Positions 1 to 62,403 of a DNA stretch of 64,000 nucleotides are shown piece by piece. The stretch covers positions 310,001 to 374,000 of the forward strand of contig JAMZAV010000962.1 in assembly GCA_024449915.1 (NCBI GenBank). The letters are read 5' to 3'. Position numbers and translations under genes: made by a program. Position 1 is the first letter of the stretch, and each line of letters opens with the position of its first letter. This DNA comes from Sweltsa coloradensis. Lineage: Eukaryota > Arthropoda > Insecta > Plecoptera > Chloroperlidae. The notes beneath the pieces are model-generated. The model was not told the origin of the DNA and ran no database searches. It saw nothing but the letters and a program-made list of their open reading frames with translations.

Positions 1-52
1 TCGTCCTTGACGCGCGGGGCCGAGCAGCCAGGCAATTCCAGCGGGTTCTTGT
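1..52 (-). CDS. Partial second copy of exon 5, cut by the window edge
   Basis: Bases 1-110 are almost identical to 3731-3840, so the acceptor-proximal 52 nt of exon 5 and its TTTATTTCAG acceptor are present again in the same orientation. Because exon 5 is symmetric (phase 1 in, phase 1 out), both copies could be spliced in series without a frameshift, or be used as alternatives. The rest of this copy lies outside the window, so it is unknown whether it is intact. The adjoining intron copy has many homopolymer-length differences from its partner, so an assembly duplicate is also possible. Confidence 0.6.
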
Positions 53-280
53 CTGAAATAAATAATGTAAGGTGGAGGTTAGCCTACAATGACAGGTCAG
101 GAAAAAGCAAAATGAGTGAATAATGGGGAAAATAAAGGCAAATAGTCTACTCATCTATTTGTGTGGGGCACCTACCAAAATATTTATTTGAAAAAAACTG
201 TCATCCTTCTGTACCTTCCTCCCCCCCCCCCCCCCACTGAAACAAAATAATTTTATGTTTCCCTTTAAATAAAATAGGAA

Positions 281-890
281 AAAGCTTAATCCCGCGCCTT
301 GTTTTTATGAGCGTAATTGGTGTATTGAGCTGCCCTGTGTTATGCCAATTTTTTGTTGTTCTGTGAAAAAAACATTTCTAAGTTGAAGATTTAAAAAAAA
401 TTAATTTAAATTAAATAAAAAATAACTTTTTTTTAGTTTTTTTAGTTTAAACGTAAATTTTTAAAAAAAAAATTTTTGTAAAATTGCGATTTTCATAAGA
501 AATAATTTTTCGATTACGCTCAATTTTCCCCGAATATATTAATTCATAAAATTTAAAGGGTTTTGTGAAAAAAAACATTCAATCGGGTAAAGCATGTAGG
601 TTTTTATAAGTCAAGAAATTTTTTTAAAAAGAAAAAAAACGTAAAAATGCGATTTTATGAAAAATAATTTTTTCCGATTGTGCTCAAAAACGTGGCATTC
701 TAAGTTTAGAGATTTCAAAGACCCCCTAAAATTTCATGCAATCGGAGTATCGGTTTTTCCGGAAACGTGTTAACAAACAGACAAAAAAAGAAAAAAAAAA
801 AAAGAAAAAAGAAAGAAGAAAAAAAAAAAATTCCGGATTTTTTTTTTCCAGTGTATGAAATGGAAACTTCGCTTCGCACTCCCAAAACCC
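281..890 (+). mobile_element. F1 element, degenerate copy
   Basis: Aligns with the F1 at 4024 over its first part (GCTTAATCCCGCGCC..., GAGCGTAATTGGTGTATTGA) and ends with a damaged CTTCGCTTCGCACTCCC. Homopolymers are longer than in every other copy. It lacks the two insertions present in the 4024 copy and so shows their empty sites. Confidence 0.65.
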
Positions 891-957
891 CAAATTTCCC
901 CGTTTTGGCAATTTTAAAAAAAAGTCAAAAAGGTAACTAAAAAAATTTAAAAAATTA

Positions 958-1718
958 ATAGGAAACGCTTAAGTCCCGCGCGTTGTTGGATGAGCGTAAT
1001 TGGTGCATTGAGCTGCCATTGTGTTATGCGAATTTTCTGTTGTTCTGAGAAAAAATAATTACTTAGTTGAAGATATTTTTGAAAATTAAATTAAATTAAA
1101 AATAAAAAATTCTCTTAATATTTTTTTAATTAATCGTAATTTTTTAAAAGGAAAAAATCGTTAATATTGAAATTTTCATAAGAATATTTATTCGATTACA
1201 GTGCACAAATTTCACACGAATATATTAATTCATAAAATTAAGGTTCTGTAAAAAAATCATTACAATCGATAAAGCATGTAGGTGTTATTCGCAGGAGAAA
1301 TTTAAAAAATTGAAAAAAGTCGTAAAATTGCGATTTTCGTAAAAAAAAGTTTTTTGATAACGCTCAAATTTCACATGAATATATCAATTCTTAAAATTAA
1401 GTATCTGTGAAAAAATCATTACAATCGGACAAATCATGTAGGTGTTGTAAGTCGAAGAAAGTTTCAAAAAATCGAAAAAAAAACGTAAAATTGCGATTTT
1501 CATGAGAAATAATTTTTCGATTACGCTCAAGAACGTGGCAGTTATAAGTTCAGAGATTTCGAAGACCTCCATAAAATTTCATGGCAATTGGAGTATTGGT
1601 TTAGCCGGAATCGTGCTAACAAACAGACAAAAAAAGAAAAAAAGAAAAAAAACATTCCGGATTTTTTTCTCCAGTGTAGTGAAATGGAATCTTCGCTTCG
1701 CTCGCTACGCTCATCCAA
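958..1718 (+). mobile_element. F1 element (Helitron/HINE-like)
   Basis: Starts TAGGAAACGCTTAAGTCCCG and ends CGCTACGCTCATCCAA before T. The subterminal words TTGGATGAGCG (left) and CGCTCATCCAA (right) are inverted copies. The interior shows the family order: ATTAAATTAAA tract, repeated ATTGCGATTTTCAT/AAAGCATGTAGGTGTTATAAG blocks, a coding-like segment (SSEISKTSIKFHGNWSIGLA), a poly-A tract and TTCCGGATTTTTTTCTCCAG. Confidence 0.75.
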
Positions 1719-1971
1719 TTAATCAATGCAAGCAAGTTGTCATGTGGTTTGAACGAGTCGGACTGATCCATATAGTTGCAGTGGGGTGTACAAGCAATGC
1801 ACAAAATTAATAATCGTCGTGTCGTCCTCGCCTCAAGAGCAGAGAGCTCAAGAGCTTTTCATGAATGCGTTCTCATCAATCGGATGGGTCTATATCGGTC
1901 CTCAACTATACCTTCATTTGTCGATCCCGCAAGTCTCGGTTGTAGCCCTCCCAAAACGTCTATATTCTAGA

Positions 1972-2761: not shown

Positions 2762-2865
2762 TTAATTTTTTTTAAATGGAGCCCCTTAAGCTAGGAATGA
2801 CATTGATTCCAAAAGTTAGAAGGCAATCATTGTGACCCAAGAATCTATTCAGAATCGATTCCCAA

Positions 2866-3583: not shown

Positions 3584-3608
3584 TAATAAATACAGAATAG
3601 TAGCCTAC

Positions 3609-3782
3609 CTTGGTCGCTCTGGGATCCACCTGTTGCACACGAAGGCTGGTCGCCGTCGATGATAGTCTCGTTGTCTGTAGGTTCCTGCTTCACGCTGACT
3701 AGCATCACCGGTTCCACGTCGTTTAGTATCTCGTCCTTGACGCGCGGGGCCGAGCAGCCAGGCAATTCCAGCGGGTTCTTGT
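3609..3782 (-). CDS. MULE-derived transposase gene, exon 5 (VKQEP segment)
   Basis: This 174-nt exon (a multiple of three) follows TTATTTATTTCAG and ends at CCAAG|GTAGGC. The first two nucleotides complete the codon begun in exon 4 (C plus AC gives His), giving ATAP-H-KNPLELPGCSAP. It continues RVKDEILNDVEPVMLVSVKQ and EPTDNETIIDGDQPSCATGG. VKQEP fits the SUMO attachment consensus (hydrophobic-K-x-E) seen in many nuclear regulators; that is an inference from the motif. The exon leaves one nucleotide for a further exon off the left edge. A hAT-type repeat ends about 25 bp beyond the donor. A second copy of this exon starts at 52. Confidence 0.72.
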
Positions 3783-9687: not shown

Positions 9688-10434
9688 CTAGGAAAACGCT
9701 AAAGTCCCGCCGCGTTGTTGGATGAGCGTATATGGTGCATTGAGCTGCAATGTGTTACGCGGATTTTCTGTTGTTCTGTGAAAAAAACATTACTTAGTCG
9801 AAGATTTATTTTAATTAAATTAAATTTTTTAAAAATAACTTAATTTTTTTAATTAAATTAAATTTTATAAAAATAATTATTCGATTGCGTTGCGCTCAAA
9901 TTTATTTCGAATATATATGTTCATGAAATTAAGGTTCTGTAAAAAAATCATTACAATCGGATAAAGCATGTAGGTGTTATAAGTCAAAGAATTGTTTTAA
10001 AAAAGAAAAAAAACCCGTAAAATTACGATTTTCATGAGAAATAATTTTTCTATTCCGCTCAAATTTCACACGAATAACTTAATTCATAAAATCAAGGTTC
10101 TGTGAAAAAATCATTACAATCAGATAAAGCATGTAGGTGTTATAAGTCGAAGAATTTTTTTAAAAATCGAAAAAAATCGTAAAATTGCGTTTTTTATGAG
10201 AAAAAATTTCCCGATTGCGCTCAAAAACGTGGCAGTTCTAAGTTCAGAGATTTCGAAGGCCTCCATAAAATTTCATCGCAATCGGAGTATCGGTTTAGCC
10301 GGAATCGTGTGGACAAACACACAAAAATACAAAAAAAAAAAAAAAAAAAAAAAAAAAACATTCCGGATTTTTTTTCTCCAGTGTAGTGAAATGGAATCTT
10401 CGCTTCGCTCGCTACGCTCGCTACGCTCATCCAA
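9688..10434 (+). mobile_element. F1 element
   Basis: A|CTAGGAAAACGCTAAAGTC to CGCTCATCCAA|T. The 3' palindromic tail has an extra CGCTACGCT unit. Coding-like segment NFPIALKNVAVLSSEISKAS. Nested in the 8925-11389 TIR element. Confidence 0.8.
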
Positions 10435-10498
10435 TAATGCACAATTGAGACATGTGTATTGTTTACTTACTTGTAATCAGTCTTATTACTTAAAATAA

Positions 10499-15211: not shown

Positions 15212-15225
15212 TTTACTAAAGGTAC

Positions 15226-21977: not shown

Positions 21978-22268
21978 GCGGTGCCGTTGCATTGTGTTGC
22001 GTTACATTGCTGGCGAGTCCCACAGCCGCTGGTTCTATCTCTTCCTCGGAGTCGGGATCCGGCAACACCTCCATGTTAACGTGGAAGACTTGTAGGAGGT
22101 GCTCGCTGGCCGCGAGGAGGAAACTCCCGACGCCCCCGGACGCCAGGCTTCGGTACGCCTCGCTCAAGAAGGCGCTCCCAAGCTGTGTGCTAGGCGCTAG
22201 GGGTTCGTTCGCAGACTCCAGGATGTCCAGCTCTTCGCTCTTTATCGAATCCAAGGAACAGAGGCGGC
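21978..22268 (-). CDS. MULE-derived transposase gene, exon 4 (acidic tail)
   Basis: This 291-nt exon follows TTGTCCAG. Its first two nucleotides complete the codon left by exon 3, giving WLFT-S-RLCSLDSIKSEEL. The donor CACCGC|GTGAGT leaves one nucleotide. Readable residues include LDILESANEPLAPSTQLGSA, FLSEAYRSLASGGVGSFLLA and MEVLPDPDSEEEIEPAAVGL. There is no known catalytic motif. The composition is acidic and low-complexity, suiting a linker or interaction region after the transposase core. If the donor were skipped, the frame would run on to a stop at 21859, so an alternative terminal exon is possible. The phase match on both sides supports the internal-exon reading. Confidence 0.75.
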
Positions 22269-24566: not shown

Positions 24567-25832
24567 CATTAGGTTTGTTCTTTTGTCCACCTCAAATTGT
24601 GGTAATTACACCTAGGTGTAAAATTCAGAATCAGAAATTGGGTTAAAAGGTGTAATATTTCACGGATGGACAAAAGAAAGATTTTTGTTGTAATTTGACA
24701 GCAAATTTCGAGGTTATGTTGCCAGCTGTCATTCAATTCAACACTTTCAGAAGATATCTCACTCAATAACACAGCTTTGTGCATTTTCTACAATTCGATT
24801 CCATATTATTTTATTACTACCAGTTTTATCTTCTATTTTGAATGAGCGTAGCGAGCGAAGCGAAGATTCCATTTCACTACACTGGAGAAAAAAATCCGGA
24901 TTTTTTTTTTTTTTTTTTGTATTTTTGTGTTTGTGAACACGATTCCGGCTAAACCAATACTCCAATTGCCATGAAATTTTATGGAGGTCTTCGAAATCTT
25001 CGAACTTAGAACTGCCACGTTTTTTAGCGCAATCGGAAAATTTTTTCTCATGAAAATCACAATTTTACGACTTTTTTCGATTTTTTAAACATTTCTTCGA
25101 CTTATAACACCTTCATGCTTTATCCGATTTCAATTATTTTTTCACAGAACCTTAATTTTATAAATTAAGATATTGGTGTGAAATTTGAGCGCAATCGAAA
25201 AATTATTTTTCATGAAAATAGAAATTTTGCGGGTTTTTTCTTTTTAAAAACAATGTTTTGACGTATAACACCTACATGCTTTATCCTATTGTAATGATTT
25301 TTTCACAGAACCTTAATTTTATGAATTTATATATTTGTGTGAAATTTGAGCGCAAACAAATAATTATTTCTTATAAACATCGCAATTTTTCGATTTTTTT
25401 CTTTTTTTAAAATCATGATTAATTAAAAAAAAAAAAAGAAGTTTATTTTTAATTTAATTAAATTTAAATTTAATAAAAATCTTGAACTTAGTAATAATTT
25501 TTTTACAGAACAACAGAAAATCCGCATAACACATGGCAGCTCAATGCACCAATTACGCTCATCCAACAACGCGGCGGGACTTAAGCGTTTTCCTAGTTAT
25601 TAAACAATCGCACATTATAACAGGGTTACTTTTGAAATTGGTGCGAATTTCCATAGCTACACCTTTTACACCTCCTCAAGAGGCAGGTGCAAAAAGTGTA
25701 AAAGTTGTAATTACCCCCTGGACAAAAGAACACGTTTTTGGAAGAAATACTGTAATTACACCTGGACAAAAGAAAGCTTTTTTCTTCAAAGGTGCAAAAG
25801 GTGTAAAAATTGATGGACAAAAGAACAGACCT
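24567..25832. mobile_element. Possible TIR element TAGGTYTGTTCTTTTGTCCA around an F1
   Basis: The left end TAGGTTTGTTCTTTTGTCCA (24567) and the inverted right end TAGGTCTGTTCTTTTGTCCA (complement of 25813-25832) match at 19 of 20 positions. The right part holds tandem TGGACAAAAGAA and TAATTACACC words. An F1 element (24838-25596) fills the middle. No target duplication is apparent. Confidence 0.45.
24838..25596 (-). mobile_element. F1 element
   Basis: Minus orientation: ends TTGAATGAGCGTAGCGAGCG at the left and AAGCGTTTTCCTAG|T at the right. Full-length, with the poly-A (poly-T on plus) at 24901-24918. Confidence 0.8.
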
Positions 25833-27628: not shown

Positions 27629-27971
27629 TTGTAAAAAGCCATAAATTAGATTGCCATTTATGCATGTGTTCTGCAAAGAACTTGAGATACAGCCCCTTGG
27701 CGTTGCGGGCTCTGGACGGCATGCCGTAGACGGAGAGGTGTTTTGGCCCGATCTGCTGGATCCAGGTGTCCCGGAAGTAGACGAGGAAGGAGTCGAGCGG
27801 CTCCGTGATCAAGTCGCTCTGGGCAAGGTGTACGATCTCTTTGAAACCATCTGCGATGAGGTCGGGCGGGAGGAACGGGACGGCCATGCACATCCACACC
27901 AACTGTCTCCAGCGTAGAACCTCATTGAGGGCGGCTTTCAGGCCGAGGGAGCGACACTTCTTACAGATTGC
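27629..27971 (-). CDS. MULE-derived transposase gene, exon 3
   Basis: This 343-nt exon starts after CTTGCTCCCCAG in phase 0 and ends at ACAA|GTAGGC in phase 1. It begins AICKKCRSLGLKAALNEVLR, so the junction with exon 2 reads YGCWYSFAD-AICKKCRSLGL, the GC-FHF-qAi-rk motif of MULEs split by an intron. It continues with VPFLPPDLIADGFKEIVHLA, then FLVYFRDTWIQQIGPKHLSV and YGMPSRARNAKGLYLKFFAE, and ends HKWQSNLWLFT. MULEs usually have R-T-N-N-x-x-E here and this copy reads RARNAKG, with no acidic residue. A non-autonomous F4 element ends only about 24 bp beyond the donor. The plus-strand open frame over this exon is a shadow. Confidence 0.85.
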
Positions 27972-28549: not shown

Positions 28550-29448
28550 GATACATAGGTCTGTCGAGAAGATATTTTTTTTGTTTTAGTTTTAAAAGTA
28601 GCTACCTTATCCACATTTTTCAAATCTGGGGGTAACTTGTTAAAGACTTTTCTTGCCATGTAATAGAGATGTTTTTCAAATTGTTTAGTGTTATGTGTAG
28701 GGTATTGTAGAAGCAATTTGTGTTTTGTCTCATGTGGATGGTGAATAGAGTTTTTAAAAAGGTCGGGATGCATTTTAACAAAACAGGCTGCTTTATATAT
28801 ATACGTGTTGGATACAGTAAGTATTTGAAGCTCTTGAAATTTCTCTCGACAGCTTTCATTTTTTTAAAAATTTCCCAGTATCCTTACCGCTCTTTTTTGT
28901 ACAATTTGCACTCGTTGAATCAAGGACTTAATTGCGGTTCCCCAGGACAGTATGCCGTACGTCAATATGGAGTGAAAGTTTGCAAAATATGCTACTCGTA
29001 GTGTGGTTGGAGTTGCTAGAGAGGAAAGTATTCGAAGAGCGTACACACTTGAGTTTAGCCGCCTACACAATCCATCAATATGAGGCTGCCAAGACAGGAT
29101 CTCATCCAGTACAAGGCCTAAGAAGTTGGCCATAGTTACTGGATGAATTACTTTATTGACTATTGAGATACTGGTTGGCTCAAGGCTCGCAGAAGATTTC
29201 CACTTAAAGTGTAGTAGCTTTGTTTTCTTTTCATTTAAATATAATTTATTAGCCTGGAACCAATTGCTTATGATGCCAACCAGCTTCTCAGCTATCATTT
29301 TAGTTAGACAAAGCTGCGGACACGACAGTATTATACTGGTATCGTCCGCAAACAAAATCATAAAGAAAACGAAGACGAAAAGAATGTCATGCTTATATTT
29401 TGCACAGTAGAGTGGCAGATCGTTAATTAAAACAAGAAAAAGTAGAGG
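28550..29448 (-). pseudogene. LINE reverse transcriptase, C-terminal part
   Basis: Continues from PLLF at the hAT junction to MILFADDTSIIL, the catalytic FADD motif, then NWFQANKLYLNEKKTKLLHF, FLGLVLDEILSWQPHIDGLC and LTYGILSWGTAIKSLIQRVQ. The tail ESCREKF...RKVFNKLPPDLKNV is normal for jockey/CR1 elements. A frame change near 28860 is present. Confidence 0.87.
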
Positions 29449-29455
29449 TCCTAAT

Positions 29456-30474: not shown

Positions 30475-31535
30475 CAGATCCTTGTGGCACGCCTACATGA
30501 TTCTCCCTCCAACTTGAGTGAGCGTCTGAATTATCATTCTGATTTTTTATCACCACCTTTTGTTTGCGATTTACCAAGTACGAGGTAAACCAGTTTTCCG
30601 AGGTACCTCTTATTCCATAATAGTTTAATTTCCGTAAAAGCAATTTGTGATCCACACAATCAAAGGCCTTGCTAAGGTCAAAAACACCCCTAAAGTGTCA
30701 CATCCTTCGTCAAGTGATTTGTAAATCTTTTCCGTCATTTCCGCAAAAGCAGATTCGGTAGATTTCCCCGGCAAAAAGCCATGTTGGCAACTGGAAATCA
30801 GATTATATTTCTGTAGGAAATTAAGGAGGCGTTTAGCTACTAATTTCTCAAGAACCTTAGAAAATATTGGGAGTATGCTAATGGGGCGTTTATTATTTAA
30901 TTTGCTGCGATCACCATTCTTAAAAATCGGAATCACTTGGGCAAGTTTCATTTGGTCAGGAAATTCACCTGCGGAGAGAGAGCTGTTATAAATCTCCTCT
31001 AGGGGCAGTAATAGGTGATCTATACTGCGTTTTATTATTTTAGCAGAAAGCTCATTTACATCTAGTGAGGCTTTCGGGGTTAGATCTAAAAATATTGATT
31101 TTATTTCCTCTATAGACGTAGGATGCATATACATTGTATGAGGGTTTTCTGAGTAGCTATTCCGTAACATTTGTAAGGGATCCGTCAAAGATGATGCATC
31201 ATATGAGTTGGGTTTATGGTTTGACAATTCTGACGGAATGTTGATGAAAAACCGGTTGAAAGCTTCTGCTATGTCCTTTCCCTTGGTTACTATTTCATTA
31301 TCTATATTCATTTTATCTAGTTTGTGTCTGCTAATGGAATCGCCTTTCTGTAAGTTAGTGTTCGTCTTTATTATGTTCCACATTGCCTTACTTTTATTAG
31401 CAGACTGACCAATATAATTGGCCACATAGTGTGCTTTAGCTGCCTTTACTACCCGTTTATAGATAAGTTTATATTCTTTTACATAGGTAATAAACCCATT
31501 TGAGCAATGCCTTGATTTAAGTATTTTGGTCAGCA
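30475..31535 (-). pseudogene. LINE reverse transcriptase, N-terminal part
   Basis: The frame includes YKRVVKAAKAHYVANYIGQS (linker before RT), FPDQMKLAQVIPIFKNGDRS, PISILPIFSKVLEKLVAKRL, and SCQHGFLPGKSTESAFAEMT, the standard RT blocks of non-LTR elements. A one-base shift near 30690 separates GVF from the expected DLSKAFDCVDHKLL, after which the frame continues to GVPQGSVLG at the hAT insertion. Confidence 0.88.
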
Positions 31536-31538
31536 TTA

Positions 31539-31913
31539 CACACACATAACAAAAACTTGTAGAAATACAGCCAAACCTTACACACTCAAAAGGAATGAGA
31601 TCTAAAAAAGGGCCAAGCTCATCTACCCTTCCACATAAACGTACAGTGTCCCATAACAGCATCCTCGAAAAGCTTGGCAAAATAGAATTTGCGATTATTA
31701 ATTTAACGTAATAGTTTATCCAAGTTCTTTTTTTCTAATTAATTTAAACGTAATAACATGCAAATTCTATTTTGCCAAGCTTTTCGAGGATGCTGTTATG
31801 GGACACTGTACGTTTATGTGGAAGGGTAGATGAGCTTGGCCCTTTTTTAGATCTCATTCCTTTTGAGTGTGTAAGGTTTGGCTGTATTTCTACAAGTTTT
31901 TGTTATGTGTGTG
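31539..31913. repeat. Fold-back block, 153-bp arms, copy 1
   Basis: 31539-31691 and 31761-31913 are virtually perfect inverted copies around a 69-bp spacer. Each arm starts CACACACATAACAAAAAC. Each arm encodes the same ~48-residue open frame (MPSFSRMLLWDTVRLCGRVD...). In the left arm this frame runs on into the LINE RT frame, which looks accidental. Confidence 0.85.
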
Positions 31914-38254: not shown

Positions 38255-39059
38255 CTAGGAAAACGCTTAAGTCCCGCCGCGTTGTTGGATGAGCGTAATT
38301 GGTGCATTGAGCTGCCATGTGTTATGCGGATTTTCTGTTGTTCTGTGAAAAAATCACTACCGGTACTAAGTTAAAGATATTTTTAAAATTAAATTAAATT
38401 TAATAAAAAATTTAATTTAATTTAATAAAAAATTAACTTAAATTTTAATTTTTTTTAATTAATCGTAATTTTAAAAAAGGAAAAAATCGTAATATTGAAA
38501 TTTTCATAAGAAATAATTATTTGATTGCGCACAAATTTTACAAGAATATATTAATTCATAAAATTAAGGTTCTGTATAAAAATCATCACAATAGGATAAA
38601 GCATGTAGGTGTTATAAGCTGGAGAAATTTTAAAAATTGAAAAAAGGCGTAAAATTGCGATTTTCGTAAAAAATATTTTTTTGATAACGCTCAAATTTTA
38701 CATGAATATATCAATTCATAAAATTAAGGTTCTGTGAAAAAATCATTACAATCGGACAAAGCATGTAGGTGTTGTAAGTCGAAGAAATTTTAAAAAAATC
38801 GAAAAAAATCGTAAAATTGCGATTTTCATGAGAAATTTTTTTTCGATTGTGCTCAAAAACGTGGCAGTTCTAAGTTCAGAGATTTCGAAGACCTCCATAT
38901 AATTTCATCGCAATCGGAGTATCGGTTTAGCCAGAATCGTGCTAACAAACAGACAAAAATACAAAAAAAAAGAAAAAAAAAAAACTTTCCGGATTTTTTT
39001 CTCCAGTGTAGTGAAATGGAATCTTCGCTTCGCTCGCTACGCTCGCTACGCTCATCCAA
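38255..39059 (+). mobile_element. F1 element
   Basis: A|CTAGGAAAACGCTTAAGTCC to CGCTCATCCAA|T, with a duplicated CGCTACGCT in the tail. It inserted beside the tRNA-derived SINE. Confidence 0.83.
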
Positions 39060-39132: not shown

Positions 39133-39890
39133 CTAGGAAAACGCTTAAGTCCCGCCGCGTTGTTGGATGAGCGTAATTGGTGCATTGAGCTGCCATGTGT
39201 TATGCGAATTTTCTGTTGTTCTGTGGAAAAATCATTACTAAGTTGAAATTTTTTTTAAATTAAATTAAATTAAATTAAAAATTAACTTAATTTTAATTTT
39301 TTTTTAATTCATCGTAATTGTTAAAAAAATCGTAAAATTGCGATTTTTATAAGAAATAATTTCTTGATTGCGCTCAAATCTAACACTAATATATAAATTC
39401 ATAAAATTAAGGTTCTGCGAAAAAATAATTACAATCGGATAAAGCATGTAGGTGTTATAAGTCAAAGAATTGTTTAAAAAAAGAAAAATCCTGTAAAATT
39501 TCGATTTTTATGATAAATATTTTTTCAATTGCGCTCAAATTTCACAAGAATATCTTAATTCATAAATAAAGGTTCTGTGCAAAAATCATTAAAATCGGAT
39601 AAAGCATGTAGGTGTTATAAGTCGAAGAAATTTTTAAAAAATCGAAAAAAAATCGTAAAATTTCGATTTTCATGAGAAAAAATTTTCCGATTGCGCTCAA
39701 AAACGTGGCAGTTCTAAGTTCAGAGATTTCGAAGGCCTCCATAAAATTTCATCGCAATCGGAGTATCGGTTTAGCCGGAATCGTGTGGACAAACAGACAA
39801 AAATACAAAAAAAAAAAAAAAAAACATTCCGGATTTTTTTCTCCAGTGTAGTGAAATGGAATCTTCGCTTCGCTCGCTACGCTCATCCAA
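39133..39890 (+). mobile_element. F1 element
   Basis: A|CTAGGAAAACGCTTAAGTCC to GCTCATCCAA|T, only about 70 bp from the previous copy in the same orientation. Same internal order of modules. Confidence 0.83.
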
Positions 39891-44141: not shown

Positions 44142-45932
44142 ATGGCATCAACTAGCAAGGTGAACGATAATGCTATTGCATCAACAAGCAAGGTGAACAA
44201 TAACTCTATTCAATCTATTTTGGAAGAAAGTGACGACAGTGATTTTGATTTTGAGAGTGACCGTGGAAGCCCAGTTCCAAGTGATTTTGAAATCGAAGAA
44301 AGCAGTTCCGAGGACGAAGATGATGTGGAAACAGGTATTTGGAAACTGGTGAAAGATGTGAACAATGGTCACACCATTGTACTAGATTCTGTTCCTCCCT
44401 TTGTTGGTAGAAACAAGGTGAATGATTTAGAAGGACTAACACCTGTTGAATGTTTTGAAAAGTTTTTCCCCTCTGATATTTACGGTATTGTTGCAAAGGA
44501 GACAAACAACTATGCTTCCCTTCACTTGGACAGCACGGTACCCTTTCCTCCAAGAAGCCGTTTTTGGAGATGGACCGATGTCGATGCCGCGGAAATCCGC
44601 GCATTTATTGCTGTGGAAATAGGCATGGGCCTGTGTAATAAGCCCTCACTAGATTCTTACTTCAACACTGCGTCCTGGCTGACAAACACACCAGGCTTTC
44701 GTCAAGTTTTTTCTAGGGATCGATATCTCGTTATAAGGTCATTCATACATTTCAATGACAATGCTAATCAACCACTGAAGGGGCAACCAGGGTATGATGC
44801 CCTGTATAAAATTCGGCCCATAATCTTTCACACTGAGGACACATATATTCAAATTTACGAGCCACATAAAGAGCTGTCGATAGATGAGACCATGATAAAG
44901 TTCAAAGGACGCTTGTCGTTCAAGCAATATATGCCAAACAAGCCTTCAACCAAATGGGGCATAAAGATGTGGTCAATGTGCGATTCAAAGACTGGGTTTC
45001 TGCTCAGGTTCAATGTTTACACTGGAAAGAGTGATGACGTTGCTCGTGGGGATGGATTGAGCTCTCGAGTTGTCAAAGAATTACTTCATGGATTTGACAA
45101 CTTAGGCCATGATGTTTACATGGACAACTTTTACTCAGGCATTGACCTGTTCCTTGACCTGCTAGAAAAAAAAATTGGGGCCTGTGGAACAGTGCGAGCA
45201 AACAGGAGGGGCCTACCAGATGAAATTAAAAAAATGAAAATGAAACGTGGAGACCCCCCAGCTATTTGGCTGCATGAGAATAAAAAGATCCTGGCTTGCT
45301 CTTGGCAAGATACGGGTAAAGTTAACATGCTTTCGACGGTGGGTAATTGTGGGGTGACACAAGTCGAAGTGAATTCGAAGGCTGGAAAAAGAAACGTTAT
45401 GAAGCCAAACGTACAAGTCATGTACAATAAAAACATGGGTGGCGTCGACAGGTTCGACCATTACTGCAGCACCTACCCATTCAACCACAAATCAATTCGT
45501 TGGTACCAAGTCATTTGGCATTTCATAATTGATACTGCGTTAGTAAATGGATGTATTGCATACAACATGGAAAACCCAGGAGCGAAGATGACCCACAGGG
45601 CTTTTAGAATGAAGGTAGCTGATGGGCTTCTGGCTGATTTCAACAAACTAGAAATGCCAAAGGGCCGAAAATCGGTCAACCCGCTGGCTAACAGGCTTGT
45701 AGAGAGGCATTTTATTATGCCAAATGAGAATAAAAAGTTCAAACCAAACTGTGTGGTTTGTTCAATTACAAAAGGACAATGCAAAGTGGATGGAGGAGAA
45801 TGCAAGAGGAAACAAACATCATTCCACTGTGCAGACTGCCCAGAGAAACCAGCTCTGTGTGTTGGTGAATGCTTTCGTGCTTACCACACTGCAAAACGGT
45901 ACAAAAAGCAGTGCGAGTGTGTGCCAGCGTAA
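44142..45932 (+). CDS. piggyBac transposase, 596 aa
   Basis: DDE-type piggyBac transposase that cuts and pastes its element at TTAA. I chose the ATG at 44142 (MASTSK); the frame is open slightly further upstream but only from a GTG. Residues ~25-65 form an acidic Ser/Asp/Glu-rich N-terminus. The catalytic domain contains the expected three aspartates: D248 in SIDETM, D328 in VYMDNFYSG and D436 in GGVDRFD, with spacings (80 and 108) close to the family pattern. Residues ~537-596 are a cysteine-rich zinc-binding tail starting CVVCSITKGQ and ending KKQCECVPA, as in other piggyBac proteins. There is no internal stop or frameshift. An AATAAA lies at 46028, about 95 bp past the stop. Minus-strand frames over it are shadows. 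Confidence 0.95.
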   Translation: MASTSKVNDNAIASTSKVNNNSIQSILEESDDSDFDFESDRGSPVPSDFEIEESSSEDEDDVETGIWKLVKDVNNGHTIVLDSVPPFVGRNKVNDLEGLTPVECFEKFFPSDIYGIVAKETNNYASLHLDSTVPFPPRSRFWRWTDVDAAEIRAFIAVEIGMGLCNKPSLDSYFNTASWLTNTPGFRQVFSRDRYLVIRSFIHFNDNANQPLKGQPGYDALYKIRPIIFHTEDTYIQIYEPHKELSIDETMIKFKGRLSFKQYMPNKPSTKWGIKMWSMCDSKTGFLLRFNVYTGKSDDVARGDGLSSRVVKELLHGFDNLGHDVYMDNFYSGIDLFLDLLEKKIGACGTVRANRRGLPDEIKKMKMKRGDPPAIWLHENKKILACSWQDTGKVNMLSTVGNCGVTQVEVNSKAGKRNVMKPNVQVMYNKNMGGVDRFDHYCSTYPFNHKSIRWYQVIWHFIIDTALVNGCIAYNMENPGAKMTHRAFRMKVADGLLADFNKLEMPKGRKSVNPLANRLVERHFIMPNENKKFKPNCVVCSITKGQCKVDGGECKRKQTSFHCADCPEKPALCVGECFRAYHTAKRYKKQCECVPA

Positions 45933-47450: not shown

Positions 47451-49500
47451 ATCTCATTACTTTTTCAAGTTCCATTACAAAATTATTTGCTAAAATATAA
47501 TATTTTTATCAAAGTTGATTTAAATTCTATGGTTTTTAGCAGTAACAATATAGGATGTAAAATATCTAGACCGGATTCATGTACATCCTGGGTATAGGTG
47601 GTATAACCATGGTATAACGACGGTATAAGGACTGGACCCCAATTCTTGAGTTCGTGGGAGATGAGTTGAAAACGCAATTTGAAAACGAAGTCGTTTTTGT
47701 TTTCGAAGGAATTGGTATTCTTGAACGGTATCGTGGAAAACGTCATGGGTTGTGAGTTGAAAGCATTGATATTAATTAAACCCCTATAGTAGGCTAGATT
47801 AGCAGTCTCCTATACCTCCGCACAGGCGCGAGCGTAGCAAATTGAAGACTCAACCGGCCCATTTCAAGATGGCGATTTGGTGTTTTAATTTATGCTTTTT
47901 TAATGCAATAAAGTATGTTACTGGATTTGTGGATATGGTTTTAGCGTGTGCAGCATGGTATTAAACAAAAGAAACAATACGAAGTGATTGCATAAGGGAA
48001 TTTAGTAATCATTAGGCTAGTATGCTTACCTGTCAACCTGGCGGCAATCTTGAGAACTATTTGGCCACAAATCGCTCCCATTTGATTAACATGTAAACTG
48101 TCATTTTAAGATGGCTTCTAATTGTACCGGAAGTGGACCACCGACTGCTGGTCTAGCCAATTATATAGGATGTCTATGGTTGAAAGAGTATCACGAAATC
48201 CAAACACTTTAAAAAGATTTGCGTATAGCAAAGAGCTCGAAAAAGTTCTATATTTATTCTAGATGGCAGTGCCTTCATAAACGCGGGCCAATCGAAAGAC
48301 AAGTTGTATGAAATGATTTGATTGTTGCAATTATGTAAACAAACAGTTGAGCAAGTCCAATGTTGTGCTGGCATAGGGTTGGCTAGGCTTGTCAAACATG
48401 TAATGTAAGTATGAATTTTACTAGTCCTATAGCCAAATGGAACTTTAGACCTACACTTTTGCATTATAAATAATTTTCCACATCTGGGCTAGGCCAGGGA
48501 CGGTTTTGATTTGTTTTATGAGAGTATATGAATTTTCTCGTTCCACACAACCTATGCAGGGCAATTGTACATGTAAATAATAGTCTGACAGTACAAGCAA
48601 GACAAACTAACAAGGTGTATGTATAGTGTAATGAAATTTACTCATTTCAAGGATGATTAAACATTTTAATAAGTTAAATATTACTATCAAAATACAAGTG
48701 AGGAAATTGACTTTTGTCAAAAATAACCAGCACTGGGGTGTTGGGTGCTCCGTTCAAACCCAGCATGAAAAGGTAAATAAAATGCACTCGTCACCAATAG
48801 GGAGGTAGGGCCTATACTATTCGGATTCGGTTCCAGACCTTCTGGGAATAGGGTATCTCAAATCCAGAAAGACTAAATTATGTTACTACATCCTGCTAAT
48901 GTACAGAAAGCGTTGTTATCTGCCCTGGGGCTGGAGATTAGGGACGGGCAAATGCGTGGACTCCTAAACCTGTAGCCCTACACTAGCGGCTATCAGAGCG
49001 TGTACACCTGCACAAGTTTGTTTTGGATAAATATGAAGTTTAAAAAATATGTGTATGCTTAGTAGTAGGGCTGGGCAATGAAATCGATATTTTGATACAA
49101 TATCGATATGACCCGATTTATTCCCGATATTTGATTGAATATCTAAATAAAAAATTTATTTAAAAAATAAATGTAAAATTTTTATTTGAAAAATCAAGTT
49201 TTAATTTCTAATGTTCCACATTTCAATTGCCCGAGCAAAATTATTATAACTTGTAAACTCTGTTCTCGTCACCTTCATCCCCTCCCCTTCCCACTCGTCG
49301 CTACGCTTGTCCATCGCCCCCCTTCACCCGCTGTGTGCGCTTCTACCTGTCGGCCGGGCGTGTGCGAAGAATAACTGGAGCAATCTGCCAGTCACATTTA
49401 TCACCAAGATGTCTGTCAAAGATAGAGCGATCGGGGTAGGGATGTGCGAACGTTCAAAATTAGAACGCGAACTCGAACTTAAAGAAATTTCGAGTTTGCA

Positions 49501-50262
49501 ATGGAAATGCTGGTGACTGTCCCACCATTAAGTGCTAGGAGAAGCAAGGCAGCGATATGCCTACATGAGAAACTTCTGAGACTTGACGAAGAGGAATGGG
49601 ACAGAGAGCCGGTAGAGAGGCTGAAGACACAAACTACATTTATCACAGCAGCGAAGCAACTAATGAAGCAAATTTTGGGTAAGGTGGATTTACGAGATCG
49701 AATGGAGCTTCCTACACCTGATATGAGGGTCGCTGTACTGGAAGTCCAACATGAGCTAACGGTGGAAGGAATTGAGAAGAAAAAGGCGGGTTATACTGAG
49801 GATGAACTTCGATGTCTGACAGTTGCTCATATAGCGAAGCACTACCCCACCCCAGAATGGGTACTTGTATATACAGACGGGTCTGCTACCCAGGGGAGGG
49901 AAAAGCAGGGGCTGGGGTATACTGCAATGCATTCCAGCAAGCATTGCCAGCAGGACGTAATGGAAGCAGTTATGACGGAGAAATCAAGGCAATCAAAGTA
50001 GCACTTACTAAAATAAAGGAACAGCAAATACCAAAAGCAGTACCATTGTGAGTAAGGACATGAGAGACAGTGAGACGTTGGAGTGTAATAGACTACTGGT
50101 CTGGCTGGTAAACAGGAAAAAACAGGTGACCTTACAGTGGGTGCCAGCACACTGTAACATACAAGGGAACGAAGAAGCAGACAGACTCGCGAAAGAGGGG
50201 AGCAGGATGAAGCAGAACAAGAAGCCCCTATCCTTCAATGCCGTCAAATCTCATGTGAACAC
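49501..50262 (+). pseudogene. LINE pol C-terminus with RNase H, copy 1
   Basis: Same sequence as 53352-54120, with an additional one-base loss in the C-run after GSAT (YTDGSATQGREKQGLG) that shifts the frame, and an extra A in GTGAAAAAAC. It lacks the CxxC tail because homology stops at 50375. Confidence 0.83.
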
Positions 50263-51276
50263 CGCAGTGAAAAAACAACATCAAAAAAGGTATGGGAGAA
50301 GGCAAGTAAAGGCAAACAGTGGCAAGGAGCAGTCACAAAAAAAACGAAGTGGAGAAATCGGCAGACTGAGACGGTACACAACATCAAAAGGTATGGGGAG
50401 GCAAGTAAGCAACAGTGGCAAGGAAGCAGTCACAAAAAAAACGAAGTGGAGAAATCGGCAGATGAGCGGCACAGTCAGAACTTGTTTTTTGCCAGAAGCT
50501 ATTAGATGTTTCATAACCTTATGTCCATGTAAAATATGAACATTGTAGTCCCACCGTCTGGTCAGAATCGCGGGCCGACGTATTAGATGTTAGCAGTAGC
50601 AGTAGTAGGCAGTAGTAGGCAGTAGCAGTACAACATCCTTAAAGTGATTTTGAGCATGTTTCAAGCCATTTTTTCACCAAGAAGGAATAATCGTACCCCA
50701 ATAAAATTTGGCATGTGTTGTCAGGTACCTAAATCCCCTCGATTGTGATAGTTTTCAAGTTCACATCACGTTACATGACGGCTGGGTAACACCTCGAAAT
50801 CACTCCAACTCTGCTTGGTGTATAAGGTGCTTGAGTGTGTAGCGCACCGCGGCTTGGCTGCGGCGCCCTAACGGGCACCTAGATACTATCTCGTCATTGT
50901 TGTTCGCAAGTGTACATTATTCTTTGCTTTTTGACCCTTGGGCACCCCTGTACCCCGCACCCATCACTGGCCAACAAGTGGATTTCTACTCCAAAATAAT
51001 CAACCTATCATAATATATGGGTCTCCATTTCTCCACAGGGGGGAGGGGAGGGTTTTCCTACCTGGGAGCTGCTCTAACTGTTTTGCATAGGCATTTACAA
51101 TGGCCGAATTCTGGTTGTTTGTAATTTTGTTATTTAATACATAATTAAAATATAATAAAGAGATTTAAATTCAATTAATAGTAATGAAGAGGTTGAAATA
51201 GGGCCAAACAGTTGCACTGTCTCGTCATGTGACAGGTAAGAATACACTAAAACTAACTAACTATACCAGTACTCAC

Positions 51277-51474
51277 ATCAGCAAAGCTATACCAGCAACC
51301 GTACGCCTGGGCCTCAGGGAAGCACTGTTGAATGGCCTGCTGCAAGGCAGCCTCGTAATCACAGATGATTTGTTGGGGTTGCATGGCCGGCAGTAAGGTC
51401 TTCACGTAGTTTAAAACGGCCACGTACGCCTTGGTGGTTCTCATCTCCATTGCAACGATGACTAGAGGAAATGC
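51277..51474 (-). CDS. MULE-derived transposase gene, exon 2
   Basis: This 198-nt exon encodes the middle of the MULE core. The acceptor is TTGATTATTGTTGTAG and the donor is GAT|GTGAGT, both strong, and both borders are phase 0. The translation starts AFPLVIVAMEMRTTKAYVAV and continues LNYVKTLLPAMQPQQIICDY, then EAALQQAIQQCFPEAQAYGC and WYSFAD. ICDYE carries the second catalytic aspartate. FPEAQAYGCWYSF matches the family's FPxAxxxGCxFHF motif, although the usual histidine is replaced by serine. The intron upstream is 10.7 kb and the intron downstream 23.3 kb, both filled with mobile DNA. A 5S-rRNA-like sequence sits about 35 bp upstream of the acceptor. Confidence 0.87.
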
Positions 51475-52618: not shown

Positions 52619-54225
52619 TTAAATAAAATGCACTCGTCACAATAGGGAGGTAGGGCCTATACTATTCGGATTCGGTTCCAGACCTTCTGGGAATAGGGTA
52701 TCTCAAATCCAGAAAGACTAAATTATGTTACTACATCCTGCTAATGTACAGAAAGCGTTGTTATCTGCCCTGGGGCTGGAGATTAGGGACGGGCAAATGC
52801 GTGGACTCCTAAACCTGTAGCCCTACACTAGCGGCTATCAGAGCGTGTACACCTGCACAATGTTTGTTTATGGATAAATACTGAAGTTTAAAAAATATGT
52901 GTATGCTTAGTAGTAGGGCTGGGCAATGAAATCGATATTTTGATACAATATCGATATGACCCGATTTATTCCCGATATTTGATTGAATATCTAAATAAAA
53001 ATTTTTATTTAAAAAATAAATGTAAAATTTTTATTTGAAAAATCAAGTTTTAATTTCTAATGTTCCACATTTCAATTGCCCGTGCAAAATTATTATAACT
53101 TGTAAACTCTTGTTCTCGTCACCTTTCATCCCCTCCCCTTCCCACTCGTCGCTACGCTTGTCCATCGCCCCCCTTCACCCGCTGTGTGCGCTTCTACCTG
53201 TCGGCCGGGCGTGTGCGAAGAATAACTGGAGCAATCTGCCAGTCACATTTATCACCAAGATGTCTGTCAAAGATAGAGCGATCGGGGTAGGGATGTGCGA
53301 ACGTTCAAAATTAGAACGCGAACTCGAACTTAAAGAAATTTCGAGTTTGCAATGGAAATGCTGGTGACTGTCCCACCATTAAGTGCTAGGAGAAGCAAGG
53401 CAGCGATATGCCTACATGAGAAACTTCTGAGACTTGACGAAGAGGAATGGGACAGAGAGCCGGTAGAGAGGCTGAAGACACAAACTACATTTATCACAGC
53501 AGCGAAGCAACTAATGAAGCAAATTTTGGGTAAGGTGGATTTACGAGATCGAATGGAGCTTCCTACACCTGATATGAGGGTCGCTGTACTGGAAGTCCAA
53601 CATGAGCTAACGGTGGAAGGAATTGAGAAGAAAAAGGCGGGTTATACTGAGGATGAACTTCGATGTCTGACAGTTGCTCATATAGCGAAGCACTACCCCA
53701 CCCCAGAATGGGTACTTGTATATACAGACGGGTCTGCTACCCCAGGGGAGGGAAAAGCAGGGGCTGGGGTATACTGGAATGCATTCCAGCAAGCATTGCC
53801 AGCAGGACGTAATGGAAGCAGTTATGACGGAGAAATCAAGGCAATCAAAGTAGCACTTACTAATATAAAGGAACAGCAAATACCAAAAGCAGTGCCATTG
53901 TGAGTAAGGACATGAGAGACAGTGAGACGTTGGAGTGTAATAGACTACTGGTCTGGCTGGTAAACAGGAAAAAACAGGTGACCTTACAGTGGGTGCCAGC
54001 ACACTGTAACATACAAGGGAACGAAGAAGCAGACAGACTCGCGAAAGAGGGGAGCAGGATGAAGCAGAACAAGAAGCCCCTATCCTTCAATGCCGTCAAA
54101 TCTCATGTGAACACCGCAGTGAAAAACAACATCAAAAAGGTATGGGAGAAGGCAAGTAAAGGCAAACAGTGGCAAGGAGCAGTCACAAAAAAAACGAAGT
54201 GGAGAAATCGGCAGACTGAGACGGC
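52384..54225 (+). repeat. Block D, second copy
   Basis: Near-identical to 48551-50375. The first 450 bp differ mainly by one-base deletions in the other copy; the rest is almost exact. It holds two isolated hAT left ends (TAGGGCTGGGCAATG at about 52914 and TAGGGATGTGCGAACG at about 53289) and the RNase-H LINE fragment. Confidence 0.85.
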
Positions 54226-54403
54226 ACAATTCAGATTGGAAACCGGTCATGACCTGCTAGCTACACACCTTCATAAACTAGGGATAACTGACTCAAGCAC
54301 ATGTACACTATGTGCTACAGAACAGCATACCAGGGAGCACCTACGCAGATGCCCGGTACTTCAAGAAATAAGAGACGCAATGCCAAAAGATACCCAAATA
54401 TGA
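53352..54403 (+). pseudogene. LINE pol C-terminus with RNase H, copy 2
   Basis: Frames read VTVPPLSARRSKAAICLHEK, then WVLVYTDGSATPGEGKAGAG (RNase H YTDGS), SSYDGEIKAIKVAL, and after a stop and frame change QVTLQWVPAHCNIQGNEEAD and RLAKEGS (RNase H WxPxHxxIxGNExAD). The end GITDSSTCTLCATEQHTREH then LRRCPVL is the CxxC-H-C tail of many non-LTR polyproteins. The break after AVPL lacks the usual SDSQ segment, so part is deleted. Both copies share the break. Confidence 0.85.
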
Positions 54404-54995: not shown

Positions 54996-55050
54996 ATTCC
55001 CCTTAAATGATGTTATGTTCTAGGGGCACTAGAAATAGCAATAAGATACA

Positions 55051-59439: not shown

Positions 59440-60026
59440 TTAAACGATGGAGCGGAGCGACTGAGAGACTCCAGTCAATTCAAACGGCATATTATTCTGT
59501 GATTCTGTCTGTCTGTCTGTACGTCGAAAATCAGCCGAACCGCTCAACAGATTGCGCTGAAATTTTAAACAGACATCCGGTACAAGTTTACTTTGAACTG
59601 TTAACAAAATCAGCTAGATCCATTGCGATTTAATCCTACAATAAATAAAAATGTGATTTTCTAAAATATCGATAGCATTTGTTTAGTTTGTTTTGGCATG
59701 ACCTAGTGGTAAGCATTTAGCCTACCGCACGGAGGCTTAGGGTTTGATGCCCGTTTGAACTTTTTTATATTTTTACACCCACATATTATATTTTGAGTGG
59801 TGTTAATTGGTAAATAAAAATTAGGTGATTTTGTTTTATCTTGAATATTTGTTAATGTTTCACGCCAATACGTTTTGAACACGATTCGCATTTTGAATGT
59901 TCAATTTAAATAATTATTGTTGCAAAGTGAGTTCCAGTTTAAATAAGGTGACCAGACGGACCGGTTTTAGAAGTCAGAACACTTTGCTCACTCACTCGTT
60001 TACCAACGACTTTGACGTTTCCCTAG
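59440..60026 (-). mobile_element. F3 element
   Basis: Minus orientation: TTTAAACGATGGAGCGGAGC to TTTGACGTTTCCCTAG|T, with the same CTGT microsatellite, GCTAGATCCATTGCGATTTA block and tRNA-like CTAGTGGTAAGCATTTAG stretch. Confidence 0.78.
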
Positions 60027-60542
60027 TACTTACTATAATAACTGTTTGATATCCCTTTTTAAGTTTGGTTCGAGTTCGAGTTAGTTCAAAATTTTTGTGA
60101 AGTTTGAAGTTCGTTTTTTAACTGAAGGTGTATAAACCCTAAAATAGCACTCAAGATGCACTACGCAATTTAATAATCACTGCAATATTTTTAGTAAAGT
60201 CAGCTACGAACACCCAATGTGACAGATCACTCGCATACTTCGGACGACGCAGAGAGATAGAGCGTGAGAGAGAGGCTCGCTCTCTCGGGGAGCGAGCGAG
60301 GGAGAGCAGCCGATGAGTGCAAGTGAGACGAGATTACGGGCCGTCCTACACGGCGAGCACATGACGTGAAACTCGGAGACTCGGGAACATTTGCGACGCC
60401 GCGGCGGGTGGTACAAGTCAGTTTGCAATGCCGACTTTACGTGGTACTGAGACTGCTGGCGTCGCAACTAAAAAAGATGCGCAAATATCACGCTAAGGCT
60501 ACCAAAATTGTAGCATGCTACAGCTACAATATGCTCTCTTAA

Positions 60543-61794
60543 CCTTTTCTGTGCGGCCATCGAGTATTCTCGATGCCGCCATCTTGTTTCCCCAGTGCGG
60601 CCGTCGAGTATACTCGAGCTGAGGTTGTTTCGAAACACGCGCGCTTGTTGCTGCTGATAGGCATAATCGATTGTAAAAAGTCGTTTTTTTCAACTGTGCT
60701 GCACTCTATGTGCAAGCTATTCAACCATCTTCTAGTTTGGTAGTTTGACCACAGATGGCTCTGTCAGTTACTTTAGTAGTGCAAATTGACAGAAACAACA
60801 AGTGAAGATAATAATGGCATCTGGAAAAGGTTAGGATGATGAAATGACACAGTTATTAGTAGAGGTAATGAGAAATGGTGATATAAAAACCCAAATTTCG
60901 TTTTAAAAAACCCAAATTTCGCGTTTTTCGCGATTTCAAAAAAATTGTCAATACCGTTACTAAAAAATAAAAAAATCACAAAAAAAAAATTGTACGCACT
61001 GTTATTTTGGTATACTATTTTCGCGGAAGCCGTGATACGCGCCGTTATTTTGGAGGTATATTTCCGTGAAGCTCGTGACGTCACGGTACCCCGCCTACCG
61101 CGCGCGTAATATTCGGTCTGGACCGGCACCTCCACCAAAACTGGACCGGCACCTCCACATCACTTTACATTTTGCACACTAAAAGGTCCAATTTCGCGAT
61201 TTAATTCGCGTTTTGACCAGTTTGATGTAATTTCGTTCGTTATTTCGCGCTATACACGAAATTTCGCAAAATTCGCGTTTTCAAAATGTTTTTTTTCCAT
61301 CACTAAATGATGTAATTCGGTGACAGTATTACATTATTGGCAATAAAACGGACATCGAGAAATTTTGCGAATTTCATTATCACCATTTTTCACTACCTCT
61401 AGTTATTAGGCAAAATGGGTTGTAATAAAGAGGTTTATGATTCATATTCGGACTTGTTTAGCAATCATAGACTTTGAAGTAAAGGTTGAAATAATAGAGA
61501 AGTAGATGACATTGCTAGTAGGCCTAGGTGACGAAAACCAGCTCACTTTTACGTAGGCCTATGCTAGGGCAATTGACACATGTAAATAATAGTCTTGACA
61601 GGATAAAAGCAAGACAATCTAAACAAGGTGTATAGGCCTAGTGTAATGAAATCTACTTTCATTTCAAGGATAAGGAAACATTTTGATAAGTTAAATTTTA
61701 CTATCAAATACAAGTGACAGAAATTTACTTTTTTCTCAAAATAACCCAGCACTGGGGTGTTGGGTGCTCTGTTCAAAACCCAACATTGAAAAGG
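60543..61794 (+). mobile_element. piggyBac-type MITE, copy 2, with a nested hAT
   Basis: Second copy of the 51920-52618 family, flanked by TTAA at 60539-60542 and 61795-61798, with ends CCTTTTCTGTGCGG and inward CCTTTTCAATGTTGG. One of the two palindromes has a point change (CGAGTATTCTCG). A 542-bp hAT element (60860-61401) interrupts it. Without that insert it aligns end to end with copy 1. Confidence 0.85.
60860..61401. mobile_element. hAT MITE nested in a piggyBac MITE
   Basis: Perfect 8-bp target duplication GTTATTAG at 60852-60859 and 61402-61409. Ends are TAGAGGTAATGAGAAATGG and, inward from the right, TAGAGGTAGTGAAAAATGG. The interior is rich in AATTTCGC-type motifs. The copy-1 piggyBac MITE shows the empty site. 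Confidence 0.88.
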
Positions 61795-62162
61795 TTAAGA
61801 AAGGAGTGCGCTACTGGTTCCGCTAGAGGTAAAAGTAGCATGCTACTTGTAGCGCGCTTCTCCCCAAGAGTGCCATTTAGATGTTGACATGTTGTTGTCC
61901 TAATGCATCTGTCATAGGATGTTTGGATATTGAATCCCAAATCACGACTAATGTGGCGTTGCGGAAGAATTGTCGGACAAGCTTTGAAATGCCCTATTGC
62001 TTAGCGTGCAACAGCAACCACAGTCAAAACAGGGGTAGATGGACCTCAGCCGCAAACTTTAGGACAGCCGGTGGTCGGTCGCACACAACATAATACTACA
62101 TGGGTTAAACGTGTACACCCATAAAAGACGTGACAGGTACACTGTAGTGGAGCTGGGCTTAC

Positions 62163-62403
62163 CTGATCAGAGCGGATTGCCATGATCGTGAGGAGGTGTC
62201 CGACGGGCGGGTAAGCGGGCACCGCCTGGTAGGACCCGTCCATGTGGATCTCCTCGCACCCCGCCAGCGACTGTGCCACCGAGCGAGACAAGAACACGGC
62301 GCTGTACCCCTCCTCCCCGCCTACCCCCACCGACCCCTGGAAGAATGCGTCGTTAAATACGCACCTTGGCGGCGTACGCATCTGACGGCCTAGCTCCGCG
62401 AGG
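62163..62403 (-). CDS. MULE-derived transposase gene, exon 1 of 5 seen
   Basis: This exon encodes the start of a MULE-type (Mutator-like) transposase core. The acceptor is a T-rich tract ending TTATTTTAG at 62404. The donor is CAG|GTAAGC at 62162. The 241-nt exon begins with one nucleotide of a split codon, so at least one upstream exon lies to the right. Readable residues are LAELGRQMRTPPRCVFNDAF, then VFLSRSVAQSLAGCEEIHMD and GSYQAVPAYPPVGHLLTIMA. HMDGS matches the first catalytic aspartate (DGTF) of MULE transposases, and the HLLTIMA stretch matches the family's QLLTIHA strand. It joins exon 2 in phase 0 to give IRSDQ-AFPLVIVAMEM, exactly the order found in MULE proteins. A FLYWCH or other zinc finger, common in animal MULE genes, would be expected upstream but is not in the window. 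Confidence 0.85.

Follow-up and report, generated by a model that had tools for sequence, protein, structure and literature searches.

A five-exon gene derived from a MULE transposase

We analysed 64,000 nucleotides of the genome of the stonefly Sweltsa coloradensis (assembly GCA_024449915.1, 1.449 Gb in 16,871 contigs), positions 310,001 to 374,000 of contig JAMZAV010000962.1 (C962:310001-374000), hereafter the window, together with the gene family to which its main gene belongs. This gene derives from the transposase of a Mutator-like element (MULE), and its 198-bp exon B proved far more alike between units of the family than their exons A and C and their introns. A preliminary description of the window had predicted five minus-strand exons with GT-AG borders and phases 0,0,1,1 that encode about 415 amino acids, and rereading of the sequence bore out each of these points (Table 1). 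Every acceptor was AG and every donor of exons A to E was GT, the introns measured 10,688, 23,305, 5,360 and 18,195 bp, and the joined exons gave 415 amino acids without a stop in one frame, the two other frames being full of stops. The frame starts at base 62402, and base 62403 completes a codon of a preceding exon. The suggested MULE identity was confirmed by a PF10551 search with the joined protein, which scored 37.9 bits over residues 69-143 (Pfam gathering cut-off 27.6). The exon set is not a product of chance, because a paralogue at C1062:307-321 kb (unit 309) carries exons A-D in the same order and because the splice sites of exon B are kept, with AG before the exon in 16/17 and GT after it in 17/17 distinct loci compared (window included). 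The sole locus without the acceptor AG, C3572, could be aligned only with frame changes. The VKQEP motif of exon E is one that we take to be a sumoylation-like consensus.

Table 1. Exons of the window gene, related exons and matches elsewhere in the genome, and repeats in the window. Positions are those of the window unless a contig is named.
Feature	Position	Strand	Description
Exon A	62163..62403	-	241 bp; acceptor AG/CCTCGCG, donor GTAAGC; MULE core start with first catalytic Asp (IHMDGSY); 5' part missing compared with paralogues
Exon B	51277..51474	-	198 bp; core MULE exon, second Asp (CDYE)
Exon C	27629..27971	-	343 bp; C-terminal MULE part; donor A/GTAGGC
Exon D	21978..22268	-	291 bp; acidic-rich towards its end; donor GTGAGT
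Exon E, copy 1 of 5	3609..3782	-	174 bp; symmetric phase 1-1; contains VKQEP
Exon E, copy 2, 5' part	1..52	-	whole copy C962:309879-310052, cut by the left edge of the window
Exon E, starts of all copies	C962:313782, 310052, 305769, 303805, 300155		each 174 bp, AG/GT intact
Unit 407	C1062		FLYWCH 405.9, A 406.8, B 407.3, C 411.2, D 412.2 kb
Unit 416	C1062		A 412.6, B 416.4, C 417.0, D 418.1, KQEP tail exon 419.6 kb
Unit 426	C1062		FLYWCH 421.7, A 424.9, B 426.6, C 427.9, D 429.2 kb
Exon-B matches, same orientation	C1062; C2457; C4064; C3397, C3771, C5049, C9777, C6615		6; 4; 3; 2 each
Exon-B matches, one per strand	C4721		two
Transposase frame, B-C intron	44142-45932	+	open, 596 amino acids; DDE_Tnp_1_7, 275 bits
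Reverse transcriptase pieces, B-C intron	28867-29454 and 30628-31734	-	probably non-long-terminal-repeat type; RVT_1 25-27 bits, just below the cut-off of 29.6
Retrotransposon-like pieces	49483-50539 and 53334-54403	+	near-identical, 3.85 kb apart, flanking exon B
Minisatellite	1206-1530, 2163-2550, 9920-10225, 25022-25406, 38467-38847, 39325-39701		unit about 160 bp, short arrays

The gene belongs to a large family

The exons had been described as single copy in the window, and this held there alone: ten further copies of exon B, at 86-94% nucleotide identity, were found in the genome, and exon E forms five tandem copies. The nucleotide-level matches of exon B lie in 11 places at 86-100%, the window included (C962, six in C1062, two in C3397, C6274 and C3572). 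PF10551 gave at least 137 genomic matches (150 of 356 candidates scored), and 59/137 of these started at profile position 25-31 and 47/137 at 1-7; starts at 25-31 are the pattern expected from a shared intron between exons A and B. Two or more exon-B matches were carried by 9 contigs, in 8/9 of which all the matches listed had one orientation. Those of C1062, the contig with most of them, are the six exon-B units 309, 355, 389, 407, 416 and 426. The introns of unit 309, the nearest paralogue of the window gene, measure about 1.0, 7.8 and 2.7 kb, so that the long introns, previously read as a sign of a host gene, are not a trait of the family.

A FLYWCH zinc finger (PF04500) scored 26 bits in units 407 and 426 (cut-off 23.6), and unit 309 has a FLYWCH-similar exon (32-34% identity) that received no Pfam score. 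No FLYWCH exon was present between exon A of unit 416 and exon D of the unit before it. At C1062:412101-413084, and again on C3397 (L022), exon D of unit 407 and exon A of unit 416 lie in one open frame, and the two units may possibly form a two-core fusion gene. The top eight MULE loci with a single frame (L001-L008) were considered as a direct source and rejected as too distant (23-39% identity over 28-61 amino acids).

Catalytic residues were assigned, and motifs named, from what we take to be general MULE knowledge. The window copy and unit 309 retain the first Asp, where units 407, 416 and 426 have Asn; all eight aligned rows retain the second. The Glu occurs in C5468, C6586 and C6891 (RTNN..E), and units 355 and 389 have it at the corresponding site; the window copy (RARNAKG) and units 309, 407, 416 and 426 lack it. 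The GCWFH of relatives reads GCWYS in subfamily I, window included. At least one catalytic residue is therefore absent in the window copy and in 4/6 C1062 units, and the window copy lacks the combination of DDE triad and C..H motif that marks an active MULE transposase.

Exon B is more alike than its neighbouring exons and introns

We compared synonymous and nonsynonymous divergence (dS and dN, Nei-Gojobori method) exon by exon among the C1062 units. Exon B dS was 0.07-0.21 and exon C dS 0.80-2.22 over the 15 pairs (unit 389 contributing 279 bp of exon C), with no overlap between the ranges and with exon C above exon B in 15/15 pairs. Exon A dS was 0.34-1.39 in the 6 pairs formed by the 4 C1062 units with exon A in hand. 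When the 400-bp intron flanks of exon B were compared, leaving out the AG and the first six intron bases, they aligned, in part, in 2/15 pairs: upstream over 108 bp at 98% in 407/389, and downstream over 24 bp at 92%, a weak match, in 309/389. Likeness thus stops at the ends of exon B, and the highly similar exons B mostly sit in unrelated introns. Exon A of units 407 and 416 contains 162 bp with one mismatch, bounded by 16/66 mismatches to the left and 34/72 to the right, which shows apparent exchange in exon A as well between these two units.

A second line of evidence came from sister segments. The stretch C3397:44-72 kb, which represents either the second haplotype of C1062:411-428 kb or a duplicate of it, agrees with that region at about 92-99% by block. 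Between them, exon B differed at 14/198 positions in each of pairs 416 and 426 (7.1%) and exon C at 6/324 and 6/313 (1.9%). Non-exon blocks differed by 0.8 to 7.9%, summing to 208/5314 (3.9%), counting exon D of unit 416 but not the second matches to a short tandem repeat around 418.6 kb. For unit 407 the comparison had no sister exon B; its exon C differed at 8/337 and its exon D at 18/470 positions. Pooled over the two pairs, exon B (28/396) exceeded exon C (12/637, p=4e-5) and non-exon sequence (208/5314, p=0.005), and with the third pair, 389/C6274, included it did so again (35/594 vs 19/966 in exon C, p=8e-5, and vs 256/6792 in non-exon sequence, p=0.015); sites within a tract are not independent, which makes all four p values optimistic. 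A narrower set of blocks yielded comparable values. In the exon C tree unit 426 joined its sister copy with support 1.0, and in the exon B tree it joined unit 416 (0.86) and not its sister. Greater likeness to a paralogue of the same segment than to the sister copy, limited to a tract and accompanied by conflicting trees, as expected under concerted evolution, was found in 2/3 sister pairs and not in the third.

The contrast recurs in a second subfamily, taken as C5041, C4691, C6127, C5333, C4027, C2457 and C5902 and leaving out C3135, C12743 and C210. Exons B of C5041 and C4027 are 94.4% identical (dS 0.05, with 2 silent and 9 replacing changes), and their 200-bp flanks are unrelated (42% and 49% identity). 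In C5902 the upstream flank is 79% identical to C4027 and the downstream flank 92% to C4691, the crosswise values being 46% and 52%. A simple crossover inside exon B of C5902 was ruled out, as the exon is far from both flank donors (dS 0.91 vs C4027 and 1.09 vs C4691), and from its sequence it seems to have come from a third source. C4691, C6127 and C5333 are alike in exon and flanks (95-99%), as ordinary duplicates are. The donor GT is replaced by GA in 4/7 members (C5041, C4691, C6127 and C5333), and C5333 also has a stop; because of these broken donors and this stop, the exon likeness in the second subfamily does not come from constraint.

The tandem exon E copies differ by 0 or 3 bases, copies 1-3 reading EPTDNE and copies 4-5 EPPDPE. 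In their adjacent 300-bp flanks divergence is 0-19% upstream and 3-35% downstream; the last copy, possibly not homologous on its downstream side, takes part in all the highest downstream values. Exon and flanks differed significantly in 8/10 copy pairs and not in the other 2. Being of phase 1-1, the copies could be spliced in series. A FLYWCH exon left of this array (C962:295465-295830) may possibly be the first exon of the next gene in the array; because a dispersed repeat matches this exon at 86% identity, we keep the reading only as a possibility.

The window copy is probably shortened or decaying

Against unit 309, the window gene had a dS of 0.41 and dN of 0.21 in exon A, 0.19 and 0.03 in exon B, and 0.23 and 0.18 in exon C. 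The corresponding dN/dS was about 0.5 in exon A and 0.8 in exon C, and pooling these two exons gave proportions of synonymous and nonsynonymous differences (pS and pN) of 0.25 and 0.17 (p=0.046). Across subfamily I pairs exon B dN/dS was 0.04-0.36. The dN/dS computation that had been proposed for this gene thus gave low values for exon B and values weakly below 1 for exons A and C. In neutral simulations exons A-E stayed free of stops in 10%, 1.6% and 0.2% of cases at 5, 10 and 15% change, and because this outcome is rare, selection probably acted on the window frame over a large part of its past.

Exon A of the window gene starts about 32 codons later than in unit 309. We searched the 18 kb that lead to the end of C962 for a FLYWCH exon and for the 5' sequence that exon A lacks, and found no convincing match. 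The sister contig C16227 is 98.7% identical to the window over 1.5 kb at exon A, and 15 kb upstream of that exon it has a FLYWCH-like stretch broken across frames; the contig has G-run errors. The six differences in exon A of C16227 were considered as protein changes and dropped, as every one of them puts a G into a G-rich run and appears to be an error. Unit 309 also carries a frame change in exon D. Judged by its sequence, this member of the family has probably been shortened at its 5' end or is decaying. The claim of a domesticated host gene therefore stood in part: the window does carry a MULE-derived coding gene of several exons and long introns, free of stops over its five exons, with low exon-B dN/dS and lost catalytic residues, but it is not single copy, belonging instead to a large family with a common intron, and its exon A is truncated, with no upstream FLYWCH exon found.

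Mobile elements in and near the gene

The introns of the window gene contain piggyBac and retrotransposon sequence (Table 1). The transposase frame in the B-C intron is presumably of the piggyBac type. RNase H was found in the retrotransposon-like piece at 53334-54403, the one piece covered by that scan.

Several observations were made outside the window. L066 (C5041:71201-78400) has, at coding-strand positions 1194-2160 and beside a repeated FLYWCH exon, a retrotransposon-like endonuclease frame with GDVETNPGP, which to us resembles a 2A peptide. L051 (C13:885-890 kb) is a bacterial-looking stretch within this insect assembly, either symbiont or contaminant, whose genes we take to be terminal-oxidase genes. 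A COX1 stretch on C3557 has 97-98% protein identity to Suwallia and Isoptena, both of the Chloroperlidae (Plecoptera), which supply the best three of the 120 matches listed, so that the order is well supported. As its contig measures 68 kb or more, this stretch may be a nuclear copy.

Proposed exchange between paralogues and its rivals

We consider it likely that this is a MULE-derived, intron-bearing gene family whose exons B remain similar through ectopic gene conversion and an occasional crossover, the window copy being probably a 5'-shortened or decaying member. An ancestral MULE transposase would have given rise to an old gene family that was amplified in tandem and partly dispersed. Its fuller members consist of a FLYWCH zinc finger followed by exons A, B, C and D, with a KQEP tail exon in one unit. 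Ectopic gene conversion and occasional crossover between paralogues would keep the copies of exon B alike, and exchange would be mostly confined to the exon by introns that have diverged beyond recognition. Exon B would be similar enough to go on exchanging, and exons A and C, having fallen below the limit, would now mostly diverge. Exon-limited gene conversion or ectopic recombination fits the exon-B pattern best. Copying of exons from an RNA or complementary DNA (cDNA) template may also suit the clean exon borders; exchange at the DNA level is favoured because two pairs share some intron beside exon B. With less certainty, the family proteins may no longer cut DNA and may act as DNA-binding regulators like plant FAR1/FHY3. 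It is possible, if doubtful, that exons B, and perhaps E, serve as exchange cassettes across loci and contigs, so that crossovers at exon B would recombine the N-terminal, DNA-recognising half of one unit (FLYWCH and exon A) with the C-terminal half of another (exons C-E) and create a combinatorial diversity of DNA-binding proteins.

Besides the optimism of the p values, several points weigh against exchange in a host gene family. The third sister pair, 389/C6274, lacks an excess in exon B (7/198, compared with 7/329 in exon C and 48/1478 outside). Exon B does not stand alone in the 416 sister pair, whose exon A is elevated too (19/333, 5.7%). Instead of the other haplotype, C3397 may represent a diverged duplicate, and an exact donor was identified for no tract. 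The window copy may be dead. The putative DNA-binding role comes from knowledge of the family. Finally, one FLYWCH exon of the family, that of C5041, looks like a dispersed repeat: it gave at least 40 genomic matches (40 of 67 candidates scored), and 26 other places match 230 or more of its 401 bases at 75-100% identity, ten of them, on ten contigs, at 97-100%. Pieces of its flanks are repeated as well. Some mechanism besides tandem duplication has therefore moved some of the family or a fragment of it.

The same dispersal speaks for the family being an intron-bearing MULE transposon that is still spreading and not a set of host genes, a reading we regard as unlikely. It would also suit the distant members, three of which keep the Glu and one the first Asp, and the broken copies, including the GA donors and the stop of the second subfamily. 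Set against it are the single orientation of the matches on 8/9 contigs, as in tandem arrays, and the catalytic residues absent in the best-studied array. A scan for inverted repeats that covered L066 alone, and thus no search aimed at the ends of the C1062 units, found one weak 35-nt pair and no long repeat.

That the window holds an intact, working and essentially single domesticated MULE gene is quite unlikely. Five exons in frame, good splice sites throughout and the rarity of stop-free frames in the neutral simulations speak for it. This reading is opposed by the family of many loci, by an exon A without its 5' part, by the absence of a FLYWCH exon up to the end of C962 and the broken FLYWCH-like stretch of C16227, and by the dN/dS values of exons A and C against unit 309.

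An artefact of assembly or polishing, in which reads of similar exons were mis-mapped and overwrote exon B, is very improbable. Assembly errors do exist, as the six changes to G in exon A of C16227 indicate, but mis-mapping needs exons that are already alike and would trim only their last differences; it leaves a dS of about 0.1 beside a dS near or above 1 unexplained, and in C5902 the flank matches better than the exon. To selection on every base of exon B, protein and silent sites together and with no exchange, we give almost no credence: exon B is indeed the best-conserved exon in several distant members too (in C5468, 61% vs 40% for exon C), but in 2/3 sister pairs exon B has a higher share of differences than either exon C or the non-exon blocks, C5041 with its broken donor stays 94% identical to C4027 although 9/11 changes replace amino acids, and the dS of 0.91 between C5902 and C4027 means that silent sites can change.

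Relation to known systems

The FAR1/FHY3/FRS proteins of plants combine a zinc finger with a MULE domain, and we know of no exon-limited homogenisation among them. They form an expanded gene family derived from a MULE transposase, according to the available parts of two sources (PMC8599713, PMC12112247). The stonefly family resembles them in its MULE derivation and its expansion and differs in kingdom and in the zinc finger. A protein search returned Chionoecetes GWK47_033651, with FLYWCH and MULE (26% identity over 77%), and one unnamed relative. A profile search returned Scylla LOC135090589 and eight more entries, mostly short and unnamed; the presence of Chionoecetes in the profile inflates the scores of its kin. 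These decapod crab genes, with FLYWCH and MULE-like parts in one protein, were the only named relatives found; they are 25-29% identical over part of the protein, and the Scylla entry is annotated with FLYWCH only. Among animal MULEs, the Phantom and Muta elements of arthropods, some with a FLYWCH finger, are described in the accessible portion of PMC6446971. The stonefly units differ from these in that each is interrupted by a number of introns, and catalytic residues are lost in several units.

Concerted evolution of part of a gene occurs in protocadherin clusters, and localized gene conversion in silkmoth chorion genes. The human red and green opsin genes are likewise in tandem, with one part kept alike by conversion and another diverging. 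In the opsins, as far as the available text of PMC3924837 extends, gene conversion homogenises introns while an exon diverges. The stonefly case is the inverse, since here an exon is homogenised and the introns and neighbouring exons have diverged. A MULE screen of 4268 arthropod genomes reports complete elements in two Plecoptera and states that domesticated copies and those without terminal repeats may be overlooked (PMC13359780, in its accessible part). Partly available sources also describe expanded MULE domains in clams (PMC7826175, PMC9993606) and, in a study of animal transposon-derived factors, FLYWCH expansions in ctenophores (PMC10027918). Exon-limited homogenisation is not described in the available portions of PMC3924837, PMC13359780, PMC7826175, PMC9993606 and PMC10027918, and no precedent for exon-limited conversion in a transposase-derived family was found in the literature searched, most subscription journals being outside its scope. 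Conversion of part of a gene is known in kind; the unusual feature here is that the contrast falls within single genes and recurs in two subfamilies.

The analysis documents a large family of transposase descent in an order of insects that has received little study. If exchange between paralogues is the true explanation, the family would be a natural case of gene conversion acting on one 198-bp exon amid far-diverged introns and neighbouring exons. It would then allow a direct test of the length and similarity needed for ectopic exchange in an animal germ line, and a test of whether DNA-binding and effector parts are newly combined in this way.

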